The notes under the pieces: model-generated
Databases searched by the model: none
The model's input: the letters and a program-made list of their open reading frames with translations, nothing else
What the model was told of the DNA's origin: nothing
Translations under genes and position numbers: made by a program
In this document: positions 510 through 38,781 of the stretch, piece by piece
How the letters are laid out: each line of letters starts with the position of its first letter
How positions within the stretch are numbered: the first letter of the stretch is position 1
Virus record (IMG/VR): IMGVR_UViG_3300021197_001262
Location: 1-38,937 of that record
Source: a virus
Length of the DNA stretch: 38,937 bases
Direction: 5' to 3' (one strand)

Positions 510-1021
510 AATCTTTCGTTTATTTTGGTTAATATTTCGTTTACTTGATATAACCTACCTATTAAATTAAAGTAGTGTTTTGTTTCTATTTGTATTTCTA
601 TTATTTTAAAGTCGTGTAAATTAATAAAACATATTTTATCAGCTCCATACAAATGCTTATAAGTGCTTAGTTGTATTTTTGTAGATAAGTAGATACCTCC
701 ATTAGATTTGAAGTCACATATGTATATATATCCATTCTTTTTAAGAATAAGGTCAATCCTTCCCGCTATCCTTTCATTATTTACGTCTACTTCACAACCT
801 ATAACCTCAAATCCTTCTATACACTTATCAAACCTATAAGACTCAGGAAAATCTATACCTTTAGTAATATAATCTTCAACTTGCTTATGTTTAATTATGC
901 CTTTATTTTTACTCTTGCAAGAGTAATCTTTTAAAGAAATACCTTGTAATCCTATTTTGTTTGCCCATCCTAATAAAGCAGGTTTATTTAATAAGTCAAT
1001 TAATTTAGTTACTGATACCAT
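506..1021 (-). CDS. PD-(D/E)XK nuclease, Cas4/RecB-like
   Basis: 171 residues. The catalytic pattern is visible: Glu77 in EVDV, Asp90 in GRIDL, Asp103-Phe-Lys105 in ICDFKS, then Gln117 and Tyr121 in QLSTYK, the RecB-family QxxxY motif. His45 and Glu49 may contribute to the metal site. Members of this superfamily cut DNA, often as 5'-3' or single-strand exonucleases. The gene sits between the IbrA-like and IbrB-like genes, overlapping the first by 17 bases and the second by an ATGA, so the three are co-expressed and probably work together. I see no zinc-finger cysteines as in Cas4 iron-sulfur clusters. Substrate unknown. Confidence 0.8.
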   Translation of the reverse strand: MVSVTKLIDLLNKPALLGWANKIGLQGISLKDYSCKSKNKGIIKHKQVEDYITKGIDFPESYRFDKCIEGFEVIGCEVDVNNERIAGRIDLILKKNGYIYICDFKSNGGIYLSTKIQLSTYKHLYGADKICFINLHDFKIIEIQIETKHYFNLIGRLYQVNEILTKINERL

Positions 1022-2234
1022 TTTTTAAAAATTTAGATTCTTCTCTTTGTTTCTTTTTCAATTCCAAATATTTTTTATATGCTTTTGTTTTATGTTGAGT
1101 AAAGCCTAATCCTTTACACCAATAATCATTTCTCAACAAAGATTTACATATCCTTTTCCAAGAAGGAACTAATTTTTTAGATTCTAAAATAGTTGGAGCT
1201 TCATCAGGTATTCCATTACTATAACCTCTCTCCTCCCACCATTTAATGAAAGTGTAAATTTTATTAAGAAAATGTTCTCTAGTAATTTCTGGAACACTAT
1301 TTAGAAACAACATAGAAAAGCTTTCCCATGTGTGATTATCTGGTTTAGCTATACTATTGTACCCAGTTATAGAACCGCTTTCATTAACGTATAAAGCACC
1401 GCTATTAGCTCCATTAACCCTAGCTACCACCTTAGCCCATGTTTCTGGTTCTATTAAATGAAATAACCACAACCCTCTTCTTTGGTCATCTCCATAAGGC
1501 TGACATATTCTTTGTTGATGAATAGATAATCCTGCTTTATGCATTAATTCATACAATTTATTATATCTTTTATCTGGATTTTTAGCATGATATATCCAGA
1601 TATCTCTAGTCCTCCAGTCATAAATAGGGTAAACGTTATAAACATTATCAGTAACTTTTGTTGTATAACATTTATCTTTATACTTTATTTTAGTGTCACT
1701 AGCTATTGTTCTGTATCTATTTAAACTTTCGTCAGTTCTAATTCCAACTAAACATGCGGTTAGCTCTCCTTTTGAATACCACTCCCCAAACTCAGGAACA
1801 AATTCTTCGAACTCCATACCATCAGTAAAAAAATCGAAAAATCTATGGTCACTTATACTGTTTTCTGGCAACTCTCTAATCCATTCTTTTTTTTTATCAG
1901 CGTCCCAACATTTCCAAAATGGCTCGTAAACAGAAACAGCATTTCTTAAATGCAAAGGTAAACATATCCAATGTAAGTCAATCCATTGGTCATATTCTTT
2001 TATAGTTTCCTTAATATGGTCTATAGTTAATTTGTATTGACCTTCAAGGTCTACTATCATTAACCCTATTTTCATGTTTCTTTTCTTCGCTTCATCTATC
2101 GCTAAGTGAAGCATTACAGTAGAGTCTTTTCCAGCACTAAAAGAAACGTAAATTTGTTTAAAATTGTCAAACGTCCATTTAACTCTCTCTACAGATTCTT
2201 TGTACACGTCGTTATTTAAAATATGTTTAGGCAT
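1005..2234 (-). CDS. IbrA-like PP-loop protein (PAPS reductase superfamily, DUF3440)
   Basis: 409 residues. Residues 31-39 read SFSAGKDST, the PP-loop (SxGKDS) of adenylating enzymes related to phosphoadenylylsulfate reductase and DndC. A conserved-looking block further on reads ICQPYGDDQRRGLWLF, which I recognise as the DUF3440 signature of IbrA. The family probably activates a substrate with ATP, but the reaction of IbrA is not established; in E. coli IbrA and IbrB together act as regulators. The gene overlaps its upstream neighbour by 19 bases and the downstream nuclease by 17. Length is normal for the family. A role in sulfate reduction is unlikely in this setting. Confidence 0.88.
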   Translation of the reverse strand: MPKHILNNDVYKESVERVKWTFDNFKQIYVSFSAGKDSTVMLHLAIDEAKKRNMKIGLMIVDLEGQYKLTIDHIKETIKEYDQWIDLHWICLPLHLRNAVSVYEPFWKCWDADKKKEWIRELPENSISDHRFFDFFTDGMEFEEFVPEFGEWYSKGELTACLVGIRTDESLNRYRTIASDTKIKYKDKCYTTKVTDNVYNVYPIYDWRTRDIWIYHAKNPDKRYNKLYELMHKAGLSIHQQRICQPYGDDQRRGLWLFHLIEPETWAKVVARVNGANSGALYVNESGSITGYNSIAKPDNHTWESFSMLFLNSVPEITREHFLNKIYTFIKWWEERGYSNGIPDEAPTILESKKLVPSWKRICKSLLRNDYWCKGLGFTQHKTKAYKKYLELKKKQREESKFLKNGISN

Positions 2235-2611
2235 GTTTGTATTTGTTTATTGTTATCTTCCCATTCTTTTAATAATTTAATGGCTATTTTATTTGACCTC
2301 TCTCTAACCTCATCAGTTAATAAACTCCATGCAATCATAGTAACTGTATTTGGAATATTATCATACAAACAACAAGCTGATTGACCTAAATAAGCTATTT
2401 TATTCATTGATGGATTAGTTAAGTTGTGCTCACATGAATACTTCCATTCATTTATTACACGTCTCATGTATTTTTCTGTAGTTGTTTTACAGTTGAATAG
2501 ATTTATTACACTTTTTGTTTTAGTTTCTTTTTCAAAACCAGAGCAATTATTGTAAAATCCAAATTTATAATCTTCCCACATCTCATAGTGGTGATAAATT
2601 CTTTTACTCAT
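2216..2611 (-). CDS. Hypothetical protein, first gene of the IbrA/nuclease/IbrB cassette
   Basis: 131 residues with many aromatic residues near the start (YHHYEMWEDYKFGFY) and five scattered cysteines. I recognise no catalytic motif. The middle (TEKYMRRVINEWKYSCEHNL) and the end look helical. It overlaps the IbrA-like gene by 19 bases, so it is part of the same cassette and may be an adaptor or substrate-binding subunit (inference). The gene follows directly after a promoter and a structured RNA leader: the 3' arm of a 12-bp hairpin ends 15 bases before the ATG. Confidence 0.75.
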   Translation of the reverse strand: MSKRIYHHYEMWEDYKFGFYNNCSGFEKETKTKSVINLFNCKTTTEKYMRRVINEWKYSCEHNLTNPSMNKIAYLGQSACCLYDNIPNTVTMIAWSLLTDEVRERSNKIAIKLLKEWEDNNKQIQTCLNIF

Positions 2612-2626
2612 ATTTATAAAATTAAA

Positions 2627-2715
2627 AAGCTTCTATAAATCCTTAACGTCCGACGGTTAATTCATTATAGAAGCTTAGTTAAAATTTCTTTTAGTTGCTA
2701 TTGTCGGACACAACT
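2627..2715 (-). ncRNA. Structured 5' leader or small RNA, pseudoknot element 1
   Basis: Transcribed leftwards from the promoter at 2722-2751. A perfect 12-bp stem pairs 2665-2676 with 2627-2638. The 26-base loop contains 2648-2654, which is the exact 7-base complement of 2703-2709, close to the expected RNA 5' end. In the RNA the pair is GUCCGAC with GUCGGAC, which would form a pseudoknot. The stem is followed by a short U-run and, 15 bases on, the start codon of the gene at 2611. It could be an attenuator or translational switch for the IbrA cassette, or a small RNA. The same design with different bases occurs near 29.4 and 38.7 kb. Confidence 0.65.
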
Positions 2716-2721
2716 ATAGTG

Positions 2722-2751
2722 CAAATATAAATATATTTTACATATATGCAA
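2722..2751 (-). promoter_or_regulatory. Promoter, TTG-N19-TATATTTG
   Basis: On the minus strand, TTG (2751-2749) is followed after exactly 19 bases by TATATTTG (2729-2722), a match to the Bacteroidota -33/-7 consensus. Transcription should start near 2715 and run into the pseudoknot leader and the gene at 2611. Confidence 0.75.
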
Positions 2752-9778: not shown

Positions 9779-12472
9779 TTAATATACGTGGTTTCTCACG
9801 TTTAAAAATCTTCTATTGTTTGCCACGTTTACAGCTTGAGGTATTCCGTTTGATGCTGTAGCTATATAATTAGTTGAGTTCCATTGGCAATTAAACCCCC
9901 ATAGTGTTAGGTTTCCAAAAATTACAGTATAAGGTCTAAATCCGTCTCCGTTATTGTTTATTGGTGCAAATTCTTGTAGATTCATAACTCTAAAATCGTT
10001 GTAAGTTCCAACAACTAAAGAGCTTGCATTTGACACAGCCATTGATAACATACCAAAGTAGTGAGTTATTTGATAACCTAATTTCGTAGCATTATCAATT
10101 ACATAATCTGGAGTACTTCCGTCACTATTATCGTTCCATGCTCCACCCATATCGTTAGTAAACCTAACAGTATTCCCAAATGGACTTGTAAAATCCAAAG
10201 TTAAATAATCGACATTTCTACCTGCTTGTGTATCTCCATCATCTCCAGCAACCATAACAGACTTACCGCTTTTTGTAGGGTTATATCTACTGTCAGGAAC
10301 GGAAGGGATGGCTACTATATCCTCCATAGAAGGAATATTAGAAACAACTCCATTGCTATCTGTAAAATTAATATTAGGAAGATTTAAAGTACTTCCACTA
10401 TTTACATCAACGTCATAACTTCCGCTTGAGTTTATAACTTTCGACTTCTTACAAACTACTTCACCTGTTACAGTAGGGAAATGCCACGTCACACCTTGAA
10501 CTAGTTGTATTGAACCATCAAATAAACTTACAGAGTTTTGTTGTCTTTTTGAAAGAATTACATCTATTCCCGTTACTCTACTTCCTACATTGTATTTTAT
10601 TTCCTCTCTATTATCATTGTCAAGAACACAATCATAAATTTTTAAAGCTTGTAAAGTGTTACTTCTGTTGTGGTCTGACATTCTCCAAACAGAAGCACTT
10701 AAAACAATCTTATGCAGTCTATCAATATGGCACTCTGTTGCATCAAAATGATTCAATATGTAAGTGTCTTTACTTTTAATAGACGATACCCTATTTTCGT
10801 TTCTTACCGTAAAATTAGACTCGCTAAATACATTAGGTTGCCATTGCCCAAACATACCTCTAAACCTATAAGAATCCTCGAAACCACTATCAGCATAATT
10901 TATTATTGATTCGTTGTAAAGAGTTTCAAAATTATTTTGATAAAGAACCCTAACAGAACCCTCGGCATTTTCAGAAGTGTATTCCTCTAAGTTGTAAACT
11001 CCTATATCTTCAGTTATTTCTATACCAGCTACTGTAAACACCTTTTTTATATGATAACATCCCACACCTTTATTAACTAAGTAGTGCCTCCAGTTGTAAA
11101 CAAAAGCCGAAACGTTACTATCGTTAGGAAATCCAGAAGAAAAGTCTACACCGTTATTTTCTAAAAGCTCACTACCTTTGTATATTTTAAATTCGCAAGT
11201 ATCTGTATCACTTTGATTTTTGTGGGCAACTCCTGTAATATCGTTATAAATTATATCATCTAATAAGTAAGATGCTAACTTTAACTCTGGCAAACATTCG
11301 CAACAATCTGACTTAAATTCATCCTCTAATTTTGGAGTAGGTAAAGAAGGTACTGGAAATTCTTTTTTACTTCTTTCTGAATATTCTCCAGTGCTTTCAA
11401 AGCATCTAGCTGTTAACTTTATATTATCCCCATTAGTAAGCTTAGAAGGGTCTAAAACACAAGTCAGCTCAAAAGATTTGTTTGCTCCAGTTATATTATT
11501 TAAAAATAACTTTGTATTAGTATCAAATGGTAAAAGAGGGCTTTGAGGTTGTCCTAATTGGTCGTAAAAAGAAGATATTAAGTATCTATTACTGTTTTCA
11601 AAGTTTTCAACCGTTACAGTTGCATAGTCAATATCTATAGTTGTGTTCAAAGGCATATCTCCCTTTACTACAACTTTTACAAGCTCACCAGCTACAGGAA
11701 CAGTTAACGGCGTGTTATCGGATAATTTATAAAACTCCCAAGTCCAATTAATTTTATCGTTGTCGTCGTAATCTCTTATTGAAAAAGCGTAATTATTTAC
11801 ATAGTTTCCATCTGGAGTTTCAACTTCAACCCTTTGGTATATATTCCATCCGTTTTGCTCATACCATCTCCAATTATTAGTTGCGTTAACTCCAAAAATA
11901 GATGTTAATTGCGGTAATGTTTGAAAGTATCTCCAATTTATTAAGTTAGGTAATAATAATTCTAAATTATCTCCTACTGTATTTATAACTGCTTTATTGT
12001 TTATTGCGCCACTAGGGAAGAAGTTTATCCAATCCATATCAATAACAGCGTTATAAACTAAATATCCACCTATATAAGTGTTAGGAGTTGGAATATTATA
12101 CGAATATAAAGTATAAGTATCTATACCATCAGAAATAACAACCGATGTCTTTATATTGTTTATAATCTCATTTGCGTTCATTTTCTTGTACATATGAAGA
12201 TTAACATCATCTTCAATAATCAAGTCTTTTGCAAAGTCTATACAAGGTGCTGTGTCTGCTAAACATTCAATCCCGTTTTCTGTTTGATTACCAGAAGTAT
12301 ATGAGTATCTTATTGTAACAACTAGAGCGCCAGTTCCTCCTATCTCTGAAATTCCATAACAATCACAATCTAATTCATGAAATTTGTAAACGCCGTTAAC
12401 ATCTAATGTTCCATCAAAAGAAATATTTTGTTGAACCCCATCAGATAATCTAAATATTATATAGTTAGTCAT
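9779..12472 (-). CDS. Large tail-tip/fibre protein with probable C-type-lectin-like (DUF1566/Lcl) C-terminus
   Basis: 897 residues. The body is beta-rich; a cysteine cluster (KSDCCECLPELK) lies near residue 390. The last 150-160 residues hold FTNDMGGAWNDNSDGSTP, then VIDNATKLGYQ and YNDFRVMNLQEF. These resemble the RFTD..G and (N/D)WRLPN..EL signatures of DUF1566/Lcl domains, a C-type-lectin-like fold used by phage receptor-binding proteins. It therefore probably recognises the host surface. The start overlaps the previous stop by one base. Confidence 0.65.
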   Translation of the reverse strand: MTNYIIFRLSDGVQQNISFDGTLDVNGVYKFHELDCDCYGISEIGGTGALVVTIRYSYTSGNQTENGIECLADTAPCIDFAKDLIIEDDVNLHMYKKMNANEIINNIKTSVVISDGIDTYTLYSYNIPTPNTYIGGYLVYNAVIDMDWINFFPSGAINNKAVINTVGDNLELLLPNLINWRYFQTLPQLTSIFGVNATNNWRWYEQNGWNIYQRVEVETPDGNYVNNYAFSIRDYDDNDKINWTWEFYKLSDNTPLTVPVAGELVKVVVKGDMPLNTTIDIDYATVTVENFENSNRYLISSFYDQLGQPQSPLLPFDTNTKLFLNNITGANKSFELTCVLDPSKLTNGDNIKLTARCFESTGEYSERSKKEFPVPSLPTPKLEDEFKSDCCECLPELKLASYLLDDIIYNDITGVAHKNQSDTDTCEFKIYKGSELLENNGVDFSSGFPNDSNVSAFVYNWRHYLVNKGVGCYHIKKVFTVAGIEITEDIGVYNLEEYTSENAEGSVRVLYQNNFETLYNESIINYADSGFEDSYRFRGMFGQWQPNVFSESNFTVRNENRVSSIKSKDTYILNHFDATECHIDRLHKIVLSASVWRMSDHNRSNTLQALKIYDCVLDNDNREEIKYNVGSRVTGIDVILSKRQQNSVSLFDGSIQLVQGVTWHFPTVTGEVVCKKSKVINSSGSYDVDVNSGSTLNLPNINFTDSNGVVSNIPSMEDIVAIPSVPDSRYNPTKSGKSVMVAGDDGDTQAGRNVDYLTLDFTSPFGNTVRFTNDMGGAWNDNSDGSTPDYVIDNATKLGYQITHYFGMLSMAVSNASSLVVGTYNDFRVMNLQEFAPINNNGDGFRPYTVIFGNLTLWGFNCQWNSTNYIATASNGIPQAVNVANNRRFLNVRNHVY

Positions 12473-25055: not shown

Positions 25056-26282
25056 ATGACAATTTTTTCAAACGTTTTAGATTCGTTATTCCCATCATTA
25101 AGAGGTGATTCAAAATATACAGATACTCCTTTTCCCTATTCACCACCAGTAAACTTGCAAAAATCTGCAACATGGGTAAATGTTGGCGGTGCTGAATTTG
25201 AACTTTACAAAACTACTCCAGAGCTATTTGCTATAATCAATAAGATAGCAACTTTAAGAACTAACGGAATATTTAAACACTATAGATTAAATTCTAAAGG
25301 AGAAAAAGAAGAGGTATTAGATTCTGACTATGTAAAATTATTAAACAATCCTAATGTTTTACAATCTAGTGAAATATGGCAAATTAACAGAACGGTTAAT
25401 CAATTGATTTATGGAAATGATTACACTAACGCATTAAAAGGTTCAAGACTTACAGAGGTGCCTTCAGCTCTTTGGAACTTAGCACCTAATAAAATGATTA
25501 TCAATAGAACTGGTAAGATTTGGAAGCAAACAGATATTGATAAGATAATAACTAGCTATGAGTTGTTAAATGATGGCTATGCAAATGATATATTTAAACC
25601 TTCTGAAATATTACATATTAAAAGCGCTAATTCAGTAGACCCTTTAGTAGGCGTATCTCCTTTTGAAGCATTGCAAAGACCTATATCTAATATTCGTTTA
25701 TCTTATGCTTTTAGGAACGTTATAATGGATGAACACGGAGCTTTAGGTTTTATTAGTGGAGACAATAAAGATACTATGGGAACAATTCCAATGACACCCG
25801 AACAAAGGTTAGATATAGAAAAACAATACTCTAAAAGTCACGGAATAAGAAAGGGACAAGCTAAAGTTAGAATACATAGTACACCAACTAAATGGCAGTC
25901 AACAAGTTTTAAGACTAAGGATTTAATGTTGTTTGAAGAAATAGACGCAGACAAAAGAGCCTTACTAGATGCTTATGGAGTAAATGAAAATGTGTTTTCT
26001 GGTAGTAAATCAACTTATGAGAATGTAAAAGAGGGACTAAAGTCTACTTATCAAGATGCTGTTATTCCATTGAGTAATAAAGATTGTAACGGCTTATCTG
26101 AGTTCTTAGGGTTAACTGAAAAAGGTGAGTTTATCGAACAGGACTATTCACACATTGAGTGTCTACAAGAAAATGAAGGTACTAAAGCAACTACTGCAAA
26201 CCTTAAAGCCGATGCTTATACTAAGTTAAAAGCAACTGGAGACTTTACGGAAGAAGAAATAAAAGAGATTGTTAAGCTCTAA
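25056..26282 (+). CDS. Portal protein (HK97 family), the only plus-strand gene
   Basis: 408 residues. It has the portal pattern ELYKTTPELFAIINKIATL, ...NQLIYGNDYTNALKG..., KPSEILHIKS, DPLVGVSPFEAL and LLDAYGVNENVFSG. Twelve copies form the ring through which DNA enters and leaves the head. The start is 19 bases after a -7 box. The stop overlaps the stop of terL by 11 bases, tail to tail. Having the portal reversed relative to both terL and the protease is very unusual. Confidence 0.93.
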   Translation: MTIFSNVLDSLFPSLRGDSKYTDTPFPYSPPVNLQKSATWVNVGGAEFELYKTTPELFAIINKIATLRTNGIFKHYRLNSKGEKEEVLDSDYVKLLNNPNVLQSSEIWQINRTVNQLIYGNDYTNALKGSRLTEVPSALWNLAPNKMIINRTGKIWKQTDIDKIITSYELLNDGYANDIFKPSEILHIKSANSVDPLVGVSPFEALQRPISNIRLSYAFRNVIMDEHGALGFISGDNKDTMGTIPMTPEQRLDIEKQYSKSHGIRKGQAKVRIHSTPTKWQSTSFKTKDLMLFEEIDADKRALLDAYGVNENVFSGSKSTYENVKEGLKSTYQDAVIPLSNKDCNGLSEFLGLTEKGEFIEQDYSHIECLQENEGTKATTANLKADAYTKLKATGDFTEEEIKEIVKL

Positions 26283-28415: not shown

Positions 28416-29084
28416 TTAGTAATTATAAGTATTAATAACCTTCTCTCTAAAACCATTATCATAAGCTTTAATAACTATCTGATTCAACGGTAAATTGTTT
28501 TGATTTAAAACTCTGCCATTTAAGTCATAGTAAAAAAATGCTCCATTACCTTGTTTTACTGATTCTTCTTTTATCTCAGTATAAGCATAATCACAATTTA
28601 TTCCTTCGTCCCAAGTGTTGTTTATATTCCAACCTGTTACTACCATATCTAAATTACTTAATATAGAAACGTTTAAGTAACCGTATTTGTATTTATGTTG
28701 ATTATCTACAGTGTCTAGCCTTAATAGCCTAAAAGGTACGTTATACTCTCCCTCTGTAGCTTCTGTAACGTTTTGCTCTCTCATGTAAGCATAAGTGTTT
28801 TGCCATTCCTTAAACTCATCTAAATAGCCTTGACACTCTCTTACTATTTCGTTATTGTTTATAGATAGTATTTCACCTCCATAAATTACACCAATAGCAT
28901 TATATATTGAGTCGTTATTAGATATAGATATATCATTTACACCATCTACATCATCTACAATATCTATGTATAAAGTTTGTACGCTTAAGTACTCTATTAG
29001 TATTGTAGTGTCAGTATGTGTTATTTGAGCTTTAAAACTAGTTAAAGCAATTAATGTTAATAGTAATGTAGTTAATGTTTTCAT
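28416..29084 (-). CDS. Secreted protein with T9SS-like C-terminal end
   Basis: 222 residues. Signal peptide: MKTLTTLLLTLIALTSFKAQ, with cleavage after A19 or so. The last 40 residues include FFYYDLNGRVLNQN and NQIVIKAYDNGFREKV. These resemble the T9SS type A sorting domain ('YDLxGRxV... G.Y.vk...g....K'), but are shorter. Position alone between terS and the early genes, with its own leader and terminator, marks it as a separately controlled accessory (moron-like) gene. A surface role such as superinfection exclusion is possible. Confidence 0.65.
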   Translation of the reverse strand: MKTLTTLLLTLIALTSFKAQITHTDTTILIEYLSVQTLYIDIVDDVDGVNDISISNNDSIYNAIGVIYGGEILSINNNEIVRECQGYLDEFKEWQNTYAYMREQNVTEATEGEYNVPFRLLRLDTVDNQHKYKYGYLNVSILSNLDMVVTGWNINNTWDEGINCDYAYTEIKEESVKQGNGAFFYYDLNGRVLNQNNLPLNQIVIKAYDNGFREKVINTYNY

Positions 29085-29387
29085 GTTGTTTGTTTTTATT
29101 AGTTAATATATTACTTATGTTAGATTCTAAAGTTTAAGAAAGGTAAGAAAAATTAAGTTTATCCCCTTACCCCTTATAAGAAGATAAACCTATTTAACTT
29201 ACCAAATAGTTGTTTTACTTCCGTTGAGTTCTGAAAGATAAGATTAGGCTCTTAAGTAGTGACAAGTTTGTCGAAACACTTTCTTAAGATTTAAAAGTTA
29301 GAATCCTAGGTGTTATCCGTTATGCTATTTATGATTTGATTGATTACTTAGCCACTCAATTAATTTTATGTAATGGCTTTAAAACAA
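29085..29387 (-). other. Gene-free leader region with RNA folds before the secreted-protein gene
   Basis: No gene seen. On the minus strand it could be read as a long leader of the gene at 29084. It has a 13-bp hairpin (29177-29189 with 29157-29169, two G-U pairs, loop UAAGGGG) followed by a U-rich run. It also has an imperfect nested hairpin with outer CTTAAG arms at 29251-29256 and 29283-29288. Confidence 0.5.
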
Positions 29388-29477
29388 AAAAGCCTACTCC
29401 AAGGTCGCGTTGAGTAAGCTTTTAAACGTTGATAAATCAACAAATGTCTTTTAAGATTATCTAAAGCGCGACAATAG
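29388..29477 (-). ncRNA. Small RNA or leader, pseudoknot element 2
   Basis: From the promoter at 29484-29513, an RNA would begin near 29477. A 12-bp stem (29412-29423 with 29388-29399, one G-U) has a 12-base loop that contains 29404-29409, the exact complement of 29467-29472 at the RNA 5' end (GUCGCG with CGCGAC). Six U residues follow the stem, so it could end a transcript of about 95 bases. Same design as elements near 2.65 and 38.7 kb. Confidence 0.62.
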
Positions 29478-29483
29478 ATATGA

Positions 29484-29513
29484 CAAATGTAATAACTTAT
29501 TTTTAATAAACAA
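29484..29513 (-). promoter_or_regulatory. Promoter, TTG-N19-TACATTTG
   Basis: TTG (29513-29511), 19 bases, TACATTTG (29491-29484): an exact match to the Bacteroidota consensus. It drives pseudoknot element 2 and perhaps the secreted-protein gene. Confidence 0.75.
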
Positions 29514-33900: not shown

Positions 33901-34131
33901 CTAATTTCTTAAGTTACATACATTTACATATATTAACCATATTTCGTAATTAGATATATAGTCGTTTGGTATTATTATTTTTACGATATTCATTGGCTTA
34001 GGCTTAACACTTCTCTTCTTAATCTTAACTAACTCTTTCTTTATAGTTATTGCTAGTAACCAGATAAAGAATAATACCATTATAACTTGAATAAGAAATA
34101 CCATTACTTCTTCTATTGTTTCTGCTGTCAT
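33901..34131 (-). CDS. Small membrane protein
   Basis: 76 residues with one membrane helix (VMVFLIQVIMVLFFIWLLAI, about 9-28), then a basic stretch (KKELVKIKKRSVKPKP) that should stay inside. It ends with a less usual hydrophobic tail. Unknown role. Confidence 0.58.
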   Translation of the reverse strand: MTAETIEEVMVFLIQVIMVLFFIWLLAITIKKELVKIKKRSVKPKPMNIVKIIIPNDYISNYEIWLIYVNVCNLRN

Positions 34132-35748: not shown

Positions 35749-37620
35749 TTAAAATGGCGCTTCTCCTTCTTCAAAAAATAAGTCGTCATCTTCTTGTCTA
35801 ACTTTTGAAAAGTCAAATTCTTTTAACTCTTCGTTTAATTTTGATATGTTTTTTTCTTCTGGCTTTAACCAACTTGAATTATCCCACGTTACATCTGGCT
35901 CACATTCATCTTCTGGTCTCCAATCATTATTTGTTGACGTATAACGACCATTATTAATATTCCACCCTAGCCAAACGTCTTGACCTGAAACACCTAAGTG
36001 CTGAAATTTAACTTTAAGAGTTTGAATATTCACCATATTATGTTCGTAATCTCTTACCATACCTAACATATTGTAACTCATGTCAAAATGCTCTCCACCG
36101 CCTTTTACTTTATAAGAGTCAGGCATTACAAATGTTTTTGTACTTCCTTCTTTATTAGCTAATTTAACTGGATGAGCAACTAAAAAAGTGTGACTATCGT
36201 GCAATTGGTCAAAAGCATCTATTTGTTGATGATACTCAGCAGTGTAAGCAGTTATGTCAGATTTACTAAAGTTCTTTAAACTTATTTTATTGTAAGGGTC
36301 TAATATAAATATCTTTACATTTTTACGCTTGTTCAATTCTGAAAACTTAGCCAAAACATCTTCAAGAAAGTAACGTCCTTTTATATCAACATGATAAAAA
36401 TTCTCGTCTATAAATTCCTTACACTCCAACACTTGTTTACTTTTTAAATTGTCAGCAGTTGGTCGCATTCCGTTAATCTTTTTAACTAGCTTATCATAAT
36501 GAAATATTTCTGGCTTATTTTCAGTAGAGCAAATACCTATTTTTTCATTGTATTTAACTGCCATTTTACAAACTATATGGTCTATTAAATCAGACTTCCC
36601 AGAGCCCGGTGCAGAAACTAAAAGAGTGTGTTGTTTTTTAACTATAGAATATATATTGTCTATTTCTGGAATATCAATAGTCATACCTTTTTTAGCTCCA
36701 TTAATCCAAAAATCTTCTAGCTCGTCATTAACATCGCTTATATTCATAATTCCCTCTAAAGGAACTATTTTAGCATCAACTAAAGTTTGTTTCAATGCTT
36801 CACCACCGTATTTTATTTTGTAATCATTTGCGTCTTTACAATCTTTAAAATCTACTATGTAGCATTTTTCAGCCCCTAACCTCCTTATAAATTCTTTTTG
36901 ACCTTCAATTCCAGCTACATCATTATCAAATGCTAGGTAAATCTTTTTAATAGGTTCAAAAACACCATAATAATCATCTAAGTATGCAGTTTGAACAGAA
37001 CTAGAACCATCAGCTTTAGGTAAGGTAAATCCATTAGGCACACTTGCAACGTTTTTAACACCACAATCATGGTAACTTAATGCGTCTGGCTCACCCTCTA
37101 CTAATACAGCTTCATCTTTTCCAATTATAGAATCTAAATTATACATTATTAACTCACAATCCTTTTCAAATTTAAAATCTTTGTTCTTACCTCTTGATTT
37201 TGTATTTATCAATTCTCCAAACAAATAATAATTAAATTCAATTGTATTTATGTTAGCTTTAGCTTTAGGCATCCATTTAATACCTTCTGTTACTTTTAAG
37301 TCAATTAAAGTTTGTTTTGATATGTGACGCTCACTACTAAACCAATCTATCGCTAAATCGCTTAAAACAGCTTTGTCTTTTTTAACTGGCTTTACATAAA
37401 CCTTCTTAGTGTTGTCTTCTTTTTTCTTATATGTATGCATTTGAATACGTTCCCCACAATGATTGCACTGTAATAATCCAGTGTCCCAAAATACAGAAGC
37501 ACATTTATCTTTTTTCTTTTTTCTACTTTCCGAACATTCAGGACAAGTGCTTGTAGTTGCTCCATTTGGTATTCTGTGAATATTATATTCGTCAATTTCA
37601 AATCCGTTTATTTCTTTCAT
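35749..37620 (-). CDS. DNA primase-helicase, T7 gp4-like
   Basis: 623 residues. A zinc ribbon comes first (CPEC at 26-29, CNHC at 52-55), then a Toprim domain (VEGEPDA at 174-180; FDND at 231-234), and a RecA/DnaB-like helicase domain with Walker A APGSGKS (337-343) and a later FLVAHP stretch (sensor region). It unwinds DNA and lays down primers at the fork. It follows the initiator-like gene with a one-base overlap. No phage DNA polymerase is visible in the window, so the host polymerase must be used. Confidence 0.93.
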   Translation of the reverse strand: MKEINGFEIDEYNIHRIPNGATTSTCPECSESRKKKKDKCASVFWDTGLLQCNHCGERIQMHTYKKKEDNTKKVYVKPVKKDKAVLSDLAIDWFSSERHISKQTLIDLKVTEGIKWMPKAKANINTIEFNYYLFGELINTKSRGKNKDFKFEKDCELIMYNLDSIIGKDEAVLVEGEPDALSYHDCGVKNVASVPNGFTLPKADGSSSVQTAYLDDYYGVFEPIKKIYLAFDNDVAGIEGQKEFIRRLGAEKCYIVDFKDCKDANDYKIKYGGEALKQTLVDAKIVPLEGIMNISDVNDELEDFWINGAKKGMTIDIPEIDNIYSIVKKQHTLLVSAPGSGKSDLIDHIVCKMAVKYNEKIGICSTENKPEIFHYDKLVKKINGMRPTADNLKSKQVLECKEFIDENFYHVDIKGRYFLEDVLAKFSELNKRKNVKIFILDPYNKISLKNFSKSDITAYTAEYHQQIDAFDQLHDSHTFLVAHPVKLANKEGSTKTFVMPDSYKVKGGGEHFDMSYNMLGMVRDYEHNMVNIQTLKVKFQHLGVSGQDVWLGWNINNGRYTSTNNDWRPEDECEPDVTWDNSSWLKPEEKNISKLNEELKEFDFSKVRQEDDDLFFEEGEAPF

Positions 37621-38399
37621 TAGTCAACTATTGTGTAAATATAACCCCCATCTTTCATGGCTTTTTGAAGAGCTAAAAATTTACTTTCTGGCAACTTCTT
37701 TTTTGTTCTGTCAATGTTCGAATAAAATGTTATTATCTTTTCATTATCTGGATTAGGAGTTTCTATTTTCGACCCTTTTATTTCATCCTCCCATCTTTTT
37801 TGATTTAAGTAAGTTAAAGGATTTGGATGGGTATAATCCTTAAATGGTTTAAAAGAAACATAATTGCTAATCGTTGACATTATTAAATCTACATCGTTTT
37901 GATTTAACTTTACAAACTTTTCAAAGCATTTAGATTTAGAAACTTTATTAGGGTATAAAGACCAAAAAAAATTAAAATCTTTCTCTCTTCTTTCTTTCTT
38001 TAACTTCTTCTCTTCTTTAGTTGGTGTTACTTTGCTGTTGTTCTTCTGTTGATTATCTGTTGGTTTTGCTGTTACTTTACTGTTAACACCTTGCAACTCT
38101 CCCCATTTACAAAGGCTTACAAGCTGATATTTACCTGTTAGACTACGTGTTACTTCATTGCTAGATTCTAACTTACCCATAGATGTGCGTAATTGCTGTT
38201 TTGAAAGCCCACATTTTAAAGATAAAGTATCCCAACTAAAAGCCATTGAACCAGCTTTTATAATATTACCCTTCCACTTTTTATCTTCATGGTTTACAGA
38301 CACTAATAAGTGTATTAGAAGCCTTGTTGTATTCTTGTCGTCATACCATTCCCAATCTAAAATAGAACGGTGTAGTTTTATCCACCCTATATTAGCCAT
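37620..38399 (-). CDS. Replication initiator / helicase loader-like protein with winged helix
   Basis: 259 residues. The N-terminus (IGWIKLHRSILDWEWYDDKN) and the region SWDTLSLKCGLSKQQLRTSM match phage replisome organiser winged-helix domains. A basic, low-complexity linker (about 105-137) has two NSKVT units. The C-terminal part (FWSLYPNKVSKSKCFEKFVK) is typical of proteins that load the helicase. By analogy with lambda O, the linker DNA could hold the origin. Confidence 0.82.
   Translation of the reverse strand: MANIGWIKLHRSILDWEWYDDKNTTRLLIHLLVSVNHEDKKWKGNIIKAGSMAFSWDTLSLKCGLSKQQLRTSMGKLESSNEVTRSLTGKYQLVSLCKWGELQGVNSKVTAKPTDNQQKNNSKVTPTKEEKKLKKERREKDFNFFWSLYPNKVSKSKCFEKFVKLNQNDVDLIMSTISNYVSFKPFKDYTHPNPLTYLNQKRWEDEIKGSKIETPNPDNEKIITFYSNIDRTKKKLPESKFLALQKAMKDGGYIYTIVD
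38026..38084. other. Possible origin-like direct repeats in the initiator linker
   Basis: GTTACTTTrCTGTT occurs at 38026-38039 and 38071-38084. Lambda-type origins lie in this part of the initiator gene as iterons. Two copies are too few for a firm call, and the coded repeat NSKVT explains them as well. Confidence 0.3.
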
Positions 38400-38607
38400 T
38401 GTTTGAAGATTTTATTTGATTAATTTTAGTTCTAAGTGTTTTAGTTAGCTTTATCGCTGTTTGAACATCGAATATATAGTCAACTTTTTTTGAATTTTGA
38501 ATACCAGAAACTCTTATGTCTGTTTCCTCAGTTACATACTCTATAATACTAACTGTTAAATAATCTTCTTTAACATCTGAACAATGAAATTTCAATTCTA
38601 CTGCCAT
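38392..38607 (-). CDS. Hypothetical protein, first gene of the replication operon
   Basis: 71 residues, beta-rich start (ELKFHCSDVKEDYLTVSIIE), then a helix (AIKLTKTLRTKINQIK). No motif. It overlaps the initiator gene by eight bases. Its start is 8 bases from a small hairpin and about 40 bases from pseudoknot element 3. Confidence 0.62.
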   Translation of the reverse strand: MAVELKFHCSDVKEDYLTVSIIEYVTEETDIRVSGIQNSKKVDYIFDVQTAIKLTKTLRTKINQIKSSNNG

Positions 38608-38633: not shown

Positions 38634-38650
38634 AAACTTTTAAGAACGCA

Positions 38651-38745
38651 AAAACCTATTATCTGATTGGCTGTTGTTGAAGACACCGCACAAATAATAG
38701 GTTTTCTAATAAGTTCGTTTTATAACTAAGCTTCAACTCTTAACT
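38651..38745 (-). ncRNA. Structured 5' leader, pseudoknot element 3
   Basis: After the promoter at 38752-38781, the RNA should start near 38745. A perfect 12-bp stem pairs 38694-38705 with 38651-38662. The 31-base loop holds 38676-38682, the exact 7-base complement of 38731-38737 at the RNA 5' end (GUUGAAG with CUUCAAC). Only one U follows the stem before a G, so it is a poor terminator; control of the replication operon by the fold is more likely. Confidence 0.65.
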
Positions 38746-38751
38746 ATACCC

Positions 38752-38781
38752 CAAAGATAGTAATTCTTTTTTAATATGCAA
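38752..38781 (-). promoter_or_regulatory. Promoter of the replication operon, TTG-N19-TATCTTTG
   Basis: TTG (38781-38779), 19 bases, TATCTTTG (38759-38752): an exact match to the Bacteroidota consensus. It lies between the end of the IbrB-like gene and pseudoknot element 3. Confidence 0.8.

Follow-up and report, generated by a model that had tools for sequence, protein, structure and literature searches.

Bacteroidota phage leader RNAs in which a 5'-terminal hairpin kisses a terminator loop in cis: a family of candidate attenuators of phage operons

In the immunity RNAs of phages P4 (CI) and P1 (c4), a phage leader RNA with complementary segments acts in trans to control transcription. The put RNA of phage HK022, a structured RNA near a phage operon promoter, acts on elongation by RNA polymerase, and plasmid pIP501 carries an antisense-controlled attenuator of the same type as that of pT181. 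In pT181 itself the leader ahead of the replication gene is governed by transcription attenuation with loop-loop kissing (PMC3753616). The HMP-PP (thiS) riboswitch embeds its aptamer in a terminator, the hairpin loop region of which takes part in a possible pseudoknot, the pseudoknot state being ON (PMC6478431), and IsrK of prophage Gifsy-1 is a phage leader at which some transcripts end as a small RNA while others extend through it (PMC4825925).

The sequence analysed here, hereafter the window, is a virus record of 38,937 bases with Bacteroidota promoters. The first of its leaders lies ahead of an IbrB-IbrA cassette and comprises the following features:

2751-2722, minus strand: promoter of leader 1, TTG-N19-TATATTTG, of the Bacteroidota -33/-7 type (TTG-N19-TAnnTTTG)
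2692-2716, minus strand: 5'-terminal hairpin of leader 1, 7 bp, loop GUCCGACAAUA, kissing segment GUCCGAC at 2709-2703
2677-2691, minus strand: linker of leader 1, AAAGAAAUUUUAACU, 15 nt, unpaired in the predicted fold, with an AAANAUU-like motif
2627-2676, minus strand: terminator hairpin of leader 1, with an outer perfect 12-bp stem (2676-2665/2638-2627)
2216-2611, minus strand: IbrB-like gene, 131 aa, first gene after the leader and putatively controlled by it
1005-2234, minus strand: IbrA gene (PAPS reductase/DUF3440), following and paired with the IbrB-like gene

A first-pass annotation had described a promoter, a segment matching the loop of a 12-bp stem, and a start codon 15 nt beyond that stem, and all of these are found on the minus strand with the coordinates and sequences that it gave. 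Its reading of the matching segment as a free RNA 5' end, forming a bare pseudoknot with the loop, was mistaken: the segment is itself the loop of a second hairpin, UAGUUGU[GUCCGACaaua]GCAACUA, which begins about 6 nt past the -7 box. The bare pseudoknot is therefore rejected, and leader 1 is a loop-loop kiss with the terminator hairpin. Within the latter, the outer stem is followed by an internal loop (UGAA/GGAU), a 5-bp inner stem (UUAAC/GUUAA) and the apical loop C-GUCGGAC, in which GTCGGAC (2654-2648) is the perfect complement of GTCCGAC (2709-2703). The annotation had also overlooked a U-tract, starting at 2626 (UUUAAUUUUAU after the stem), that closes the 3' hairpin in the manner of an intrinsic terminator; the AUG (2611) lies 15 nt past the stem.

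The same layout had been reported at 29.4 and 38.7 kb, with the pairs GUCGCG/CGCGAC and GUUGAAG/CUUCAAC, and both leaders are present as described:

29484-29513, minus strand: promoter motif of leader 2
29458-29480, minus strand: 5'-terminal hairpin of leader 2, UAUCUA[uuGUCGCGcuu]UAGAUA, kissing segment GUCGCG at 29472-29467
29428-29441, minus strand: additional linker hairpin of leader 2, GUUGA-UUUA-UCAAC, marking a class II element
29388-29423, minus strand: terminator hairpin of leader 2, a plain stem followed by a U-run, kissing segment CGCGAC at 29409-29404
38752-38781, minus strand: promoter motif of leader 3
38721-38748, minus strand: 5'-terminal hairpin of leader 3, UAUAGUUAAG[aGUUGAAG]CUUAGUUAUA, kissing segment GUUGAAG at 38737-38731
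38650-38706, minus strand: terminator hairpin of leader 3, with an internal loop, kissing segment CUUCAAC at 38682-38676
38392-38607, minus strand: first gene of the replication operon, 71 aa, under leader 3
37620-38399: DnaD-like loader gene, following the 71-aa gene in the leader 3 operon
35749-37620: primase/helicase gene of the leader 3 operon

The TTG-N19 promoter spacing is identical in the three leaders, all of which fold stably even when the kiss is left out (z -2.5 to -3.6). Downstream of leader 2, some 300 nt (29084-29388, minus strand) contain no long open reading frame, and the next gene, at a distance of 303 nt, encodes a product with a signal-like N-terminus; the main product of this region may be the terminated leader itself. 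A 17-pair hairpin followed by a U-run is located downstream of leader 2, at 29192-29154. Two further minus-strand promoters (34553-34524 and 6594-6565) have the same TTG-N19-TAnnTTTG spacing and short A-rich leaders from which the hairpins are absent, indicating that this phage has two kinds of operon start. The sole long plus-strand gene, encoding the portal protein (25056-26282), sits within the minus-strand structural region.

Relatives of the IbrB-like gene, IbrA, the primase and the DnaD-like loader were taken from IMG/VR, and their loci were searched with a detector that requires a 5' hairpin, a hairpin with a T-run and complementary loops, without demanding a promoter. The 1.58 Mb of phage DNA contained 76 sites with a score of at least 25, and an equal amount of dinucleotide-shuffled DNA contained 0, which refutes chance complementarity. 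The three best sites in the window are the three leaders (31.6, 29.6 and 28.5, the next site scoring 21.0), which bears out the earlier judgement that the matches were unlikely to be accidental. Dropping a few doubtful matches and collapsing the remainder at 85% identity left a non-redundant set of 53 elements, which carry 51 different kiss sequences. When loops were swapped among elements, at least 6 pairs formed in only about 4% of cases, a figure conditioned on the detector; since only sites with a kiss of 6 bp or more pass the detector, its counts are biased, and the shuffles and the covariance model built without the kiss are the only tests independent of that requirement.

Evidence for pairing also comes from the way in which the kiss changes. 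In an alignment (A1) of 15 close orthologues preceding a replication gene, 100% of the cells of the kiss helix are paired, with five of its seven pairs changed on both sides and none on one side only, and the covariation score of the whole structure is 0.333, against 0.123 for shuffled alignments and 0.01-0.07 with the partners slid. The cultured phages sniff9-1 (GUGAGACG/CGUCUCAC), mumin and snusmum (GUGGAACG/CGUUCCAC) and morran (GUGAGAAG/CUUCUCAC) show compensated changes in the kiss in leaders that are nearly identical elsewhere, and in two class II leaders, L062 and L088, covariation extends over the kiss, the stem of the 5' hairpin and the hairpin in the linker. The first-pass annotation had let its reading depend on covariation in related phages, which is thus strong. 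The kiss changes solely between Watson-Crick pairs, as an inverted repeat acting at the DNA level, for instance as a protein binding site, would also do. Such a repeat would not, however, use the G-U pairs that occur in the stems, the three different repeats of one genome do not amount to the site of one protein, and the orientation of the element to promoter and gene is fixed; together with the empty shuffles, these observations make either a DNA repeat or chance complementarity extremely improbable.

Covariance models built on the hairpins alone, with the kiss left out, recovered the leader in other phages, as the search proposed at the outset had envisaged. Model R1 recovered leader 1 (E=1e-4), and the further elements that it found carry kisses by eye, among them L174 (GGTCGAG/CTCGACC) and L119 (CTTCTCAC/GTGAGAAG). 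Model R2, applied to 18 cultured phage records, gave nine matches with E<0.01 (phi19:1, phi10:1, JQ, P12002L, P12002S, mumin9-1, FCL-2, P2559S and phi18:3), and a perfect kiss of 6-10 bp is present in all nine. Among weaker R2 matches, a kiss is present in phage 11b (E 0.047) and at another phi18:3 site (E 0.012) and is absent from phi46:1 (E 0.012). R2 gave no match to a Staphylococcus phage or to Bacteroides phage B124-14. The models are not fully sensitive, since R2 misses the sniff9-1 leader found by the detector. That the RNA family exists is close to certain.

The leader occurs in cultured phages of Cellulophaga, Flavobacterium, Polaribacter, Tenacibaculum and Croceibacter, usually ahead of the replication operon. 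It precedes the first gene of this operon in the window (leader 3), in phi10:1 (gp024), in sniff9-1 (gp44), in phi18:3 (gp007, with a DnaD-like helicase loader next to it downstream), in P12002L (a primosomal protein gene) and in mumin9-1 (gp37, upstream of a helicase). A second kissing leader of mumin9-1 (GTCGTCG/CGACGAC; L204 476, at about record position 11676) stands before endonuclease-SSB genes. The IbrB-IbrA cassette is preceded by a leader in the window and in L006, L013, L014, L048, L068 and L083. An element tied to the IbrBA cassette was nevertheless rejected, because leaders are found ahead of replication and other operons as well and are missing from many IbrB relatives, and a general feature of phages with DnaD operons was rejected as well, most loci from the distant DnaD query, including apparent Firmicutes phages, being without it. 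One scan of IMG/VR yielded 541 relatives of IbrA, with and without the leader. Bacterial genomes, scanned twice, provided no prophage loci that could be used. In Croceibacter phage P2559S (NC_018276) the leader (33901-34007) contains the annotated start of gp48 (33955), which is probably placed too early. L181, assigned to an Arcobacter MAG, is probably a mis-binned phage contig; over 19 residues, a fragment that it encodes shares 84% identity with a DnaD-like protein of a Flavobacterium phage.

Two structural classes can be distinguished among the 53 elements. In 43, a bare linker is followed by a terminator with a loop region of 16-45 nt, usually made up of an internal loop and an inner stem; two internal-loop motifs recur, UGAA/GGAU, in one orientation or the other, in 16 elements and a loop-E-like AGUA/GAA in 11. 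The other ten (class II) have a linker hairpin, in nine cases together with a plain short loop of 6-11 nt, and both classes occur in one phage, as leader 2 of the window belongs to the second. AAANAUU occurs in the linker of 18 of the 53 elements, an enrichment over the 4.1 in shuffles, the 5' hairpin begins 3-7 nt past the -7 box in most elements, and in 50 of the 53 an ATG lies 8-53 nt beyond the end of the hairpin. A taut-linker geometry, with the linker lengthening with hairpin height, was not supported (Spearman -0.29, p 0.06).

Neither the window nor 23 related loci (leaders from cultured phages and IMG/VR) gave a gathering-score match to Rfam 15, the only matches being at chance level (E 0.9-5) and located away from the leaders, and a known Rfam family was therefore rejected. 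The proposal of a new RNA family acting after the promoter thus stands as regards covariation, the Rfam result and the relatives found by model, while the anatomy behind it has given way to kissing hairpins in two subtypes. The P4 CI and c4 RNAs resemble the phage leaders in being phage leader RNAs with complementary segments; unlike the c4 antisense RNA, which is Rfam family RF01695, the leaders in the window and related loci have no match to that or any other family. HK022 put, an RNA of the kind that makes RNA polymerase resist terminators further downstream, resembles the leader described here as a structured RNA close to the promoter of phage operons, but it consists of two adjacent hairpins and lacks the kiss and the terminator. 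The pT181 and pIP501 systems share with our leader the position before a replication gene, a loop-loop kiss and, as proposed here, attenuation, but their kissing partner is a separate antisense RNA and their kiss works through a mutually exclusive antiterminator, whereas here both loops are in one RNA. A mutually exclusive antiterminator helix of that type gave no signal in the phage leaders (own versus swapped complementarity 5.2 v 5.4 and 6.3 v 6.1), which indicates that the mechanism is not textbook attenuation. The HMP-PP riboswitch is alike in that a terminator hairpin loop region takes part in a possible pseudoknot, but its loop and ligand pocket are strictly conserved; the loops of the phage leader are variable (51 kiss sequences in 53 elements, and no Rfam match) and covarying, and their partner comes from a separate 5' hairpin. 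IsrK is likewise a phage leader with termination and read-through, observed there and proposed here from sequence, but it is built differently and, as a trans-acting RNA, affects how its own long mRNA is translated. A literature search found no description of the element, which may have been listed earlier in a survey of candidate structured RNAs; HMP_4078, a 109-nt Bacteroidetes phage-associated candidate, has been described as having no predicted terminator (PMC8040213). In kind the leader would be an attenuator, and we found no account of one whose 5'-terminal hairpin kisses the terminator loop of the same RNA.

The U-tracts point to termination as the controlled step. A G+C-bearing hairpin with a U-tract between promoter and first codon is what defines an intrinsic terminator or attenuator, and the leaders have it. 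When the T-run requirement was dropped, 26 promoter-anchored elements scored at least 25, compared with one in shuffles, and 23 of these 26 have at least five T in a 9-nt window at the hairpin end, against a background of 12%, which favours control of termination. The leader could alternatively stabilise the mRNA, the 5' hairpin and kiss blocking 5'-end-dependent decay while the second hairpin and the AU-rich stretch only present the start codon. A hairpin at the very start of the transcript, 3-7 nt after the -7 box, and a fold that is stable without the kiss and ends shortly before the ATG would suit such a role; a stabiliser needs no U-tract, however, and the other promoters of the window manage with short A-rich leaders devoid of such structure, so that we regard this alternative as unlikely.

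The structure of the leader, comprising promoter, both hairpins, kiss, U-tract and position, is well supported by the sequence comparisons. That it works as a cis-acting conditional terminator (an attenuator leader) of Bacteroidota phages, in which the kiss sets termination against read-through, appears to us somewhat more probable than its being otherwise. The transcript begins with a hairpin, and a hairpin of intrinsic terminator type follows 10-35 nt later, just ahead of the operon's first codon; its apical loop and that of the first hairpin pair with each other over 6-8 nt within the same molecule, giving a compact kissing complex. The kiss would form first, because both loops leave RNA polymerase earlier than the 3' arm of the terminator does, and would decide how the terminator folds or meets the polymerase, which would then either stop, releasing an RNA of about 100 nt, or continue into the operon. 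We lean towards the kissed state favouring read-through, since a strong stem with a U-tract terminates unaided. The converse, a kiss that speeds or locks terminator folding and must be broken by a factor to turn the operon on, draws on the fact that the full terminator stem leaves room for the kiss (clearest in class II, with nothing but a short loop taking part) and on the expectation that the kiss would form by default, its median duplex energy being -9 kcal/mol. As the stems are strong already, and the phages would need an extra device to express their replication genes, a pro-termination kiss seems quite unlikely.

The letters of the kiss differ in nearly every leader, even within one phage, so under the conditional-terminator reading the recognising partner, whether RNA polymerase itself or a phage or host protein that senses structure, must respond to shape and not to sequence. 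In every multi-leader contig the leaders of one phage differ in their kiss letters, although such contigs are too few for a claim of selection for orthogonality. The same diversity is what self-specific control would need if the terminated leader were a stable small RNA that targeted, in trans, further copies of the same leader while they are being transcribed, an auto-attenuation like that of P4 immunity in which each leader would control itself alone; both complementary loops lie in one RNA, so that two copies could pair, and IsrK of Gifsy-1, which acts on the mRNA of its own read-through, is a precedent for a dual leader and small RNA (PMC4825925). Intramolecular pairing at such a distance should nonetheless win over pairing in trans, and the kiss 7-mers of leader 1 have no other copy, and hence no third partner, within the 39-kb window, which favours pairing in cis. 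We consider such trans control improbable.

To our knowledge, little is known about gene timing in Bacteroidota phages. The covariation of the leader RNA is very clean, and we tentatively suggest, as a possibility short of an even chance, that these leaders are widespread phage RNA switches in which a terminator, controlled by an intramolecular kiss with a 5' hairpin and recognised by shape, serves general operon timing, above all of replication. The leader is present in laboratory-grown phages (the Flavobacterium LMO phages and Cellulophaga phi10:1, phi18:3 and phi19:1) and is thus testable at once. If the kiss controls termination, it would represent attenuation without an antisense RNA, a leader peptide or a known ligand, and the 51 kiss sequences would constitute many mutually orthogonal cis-acting RNA switches.
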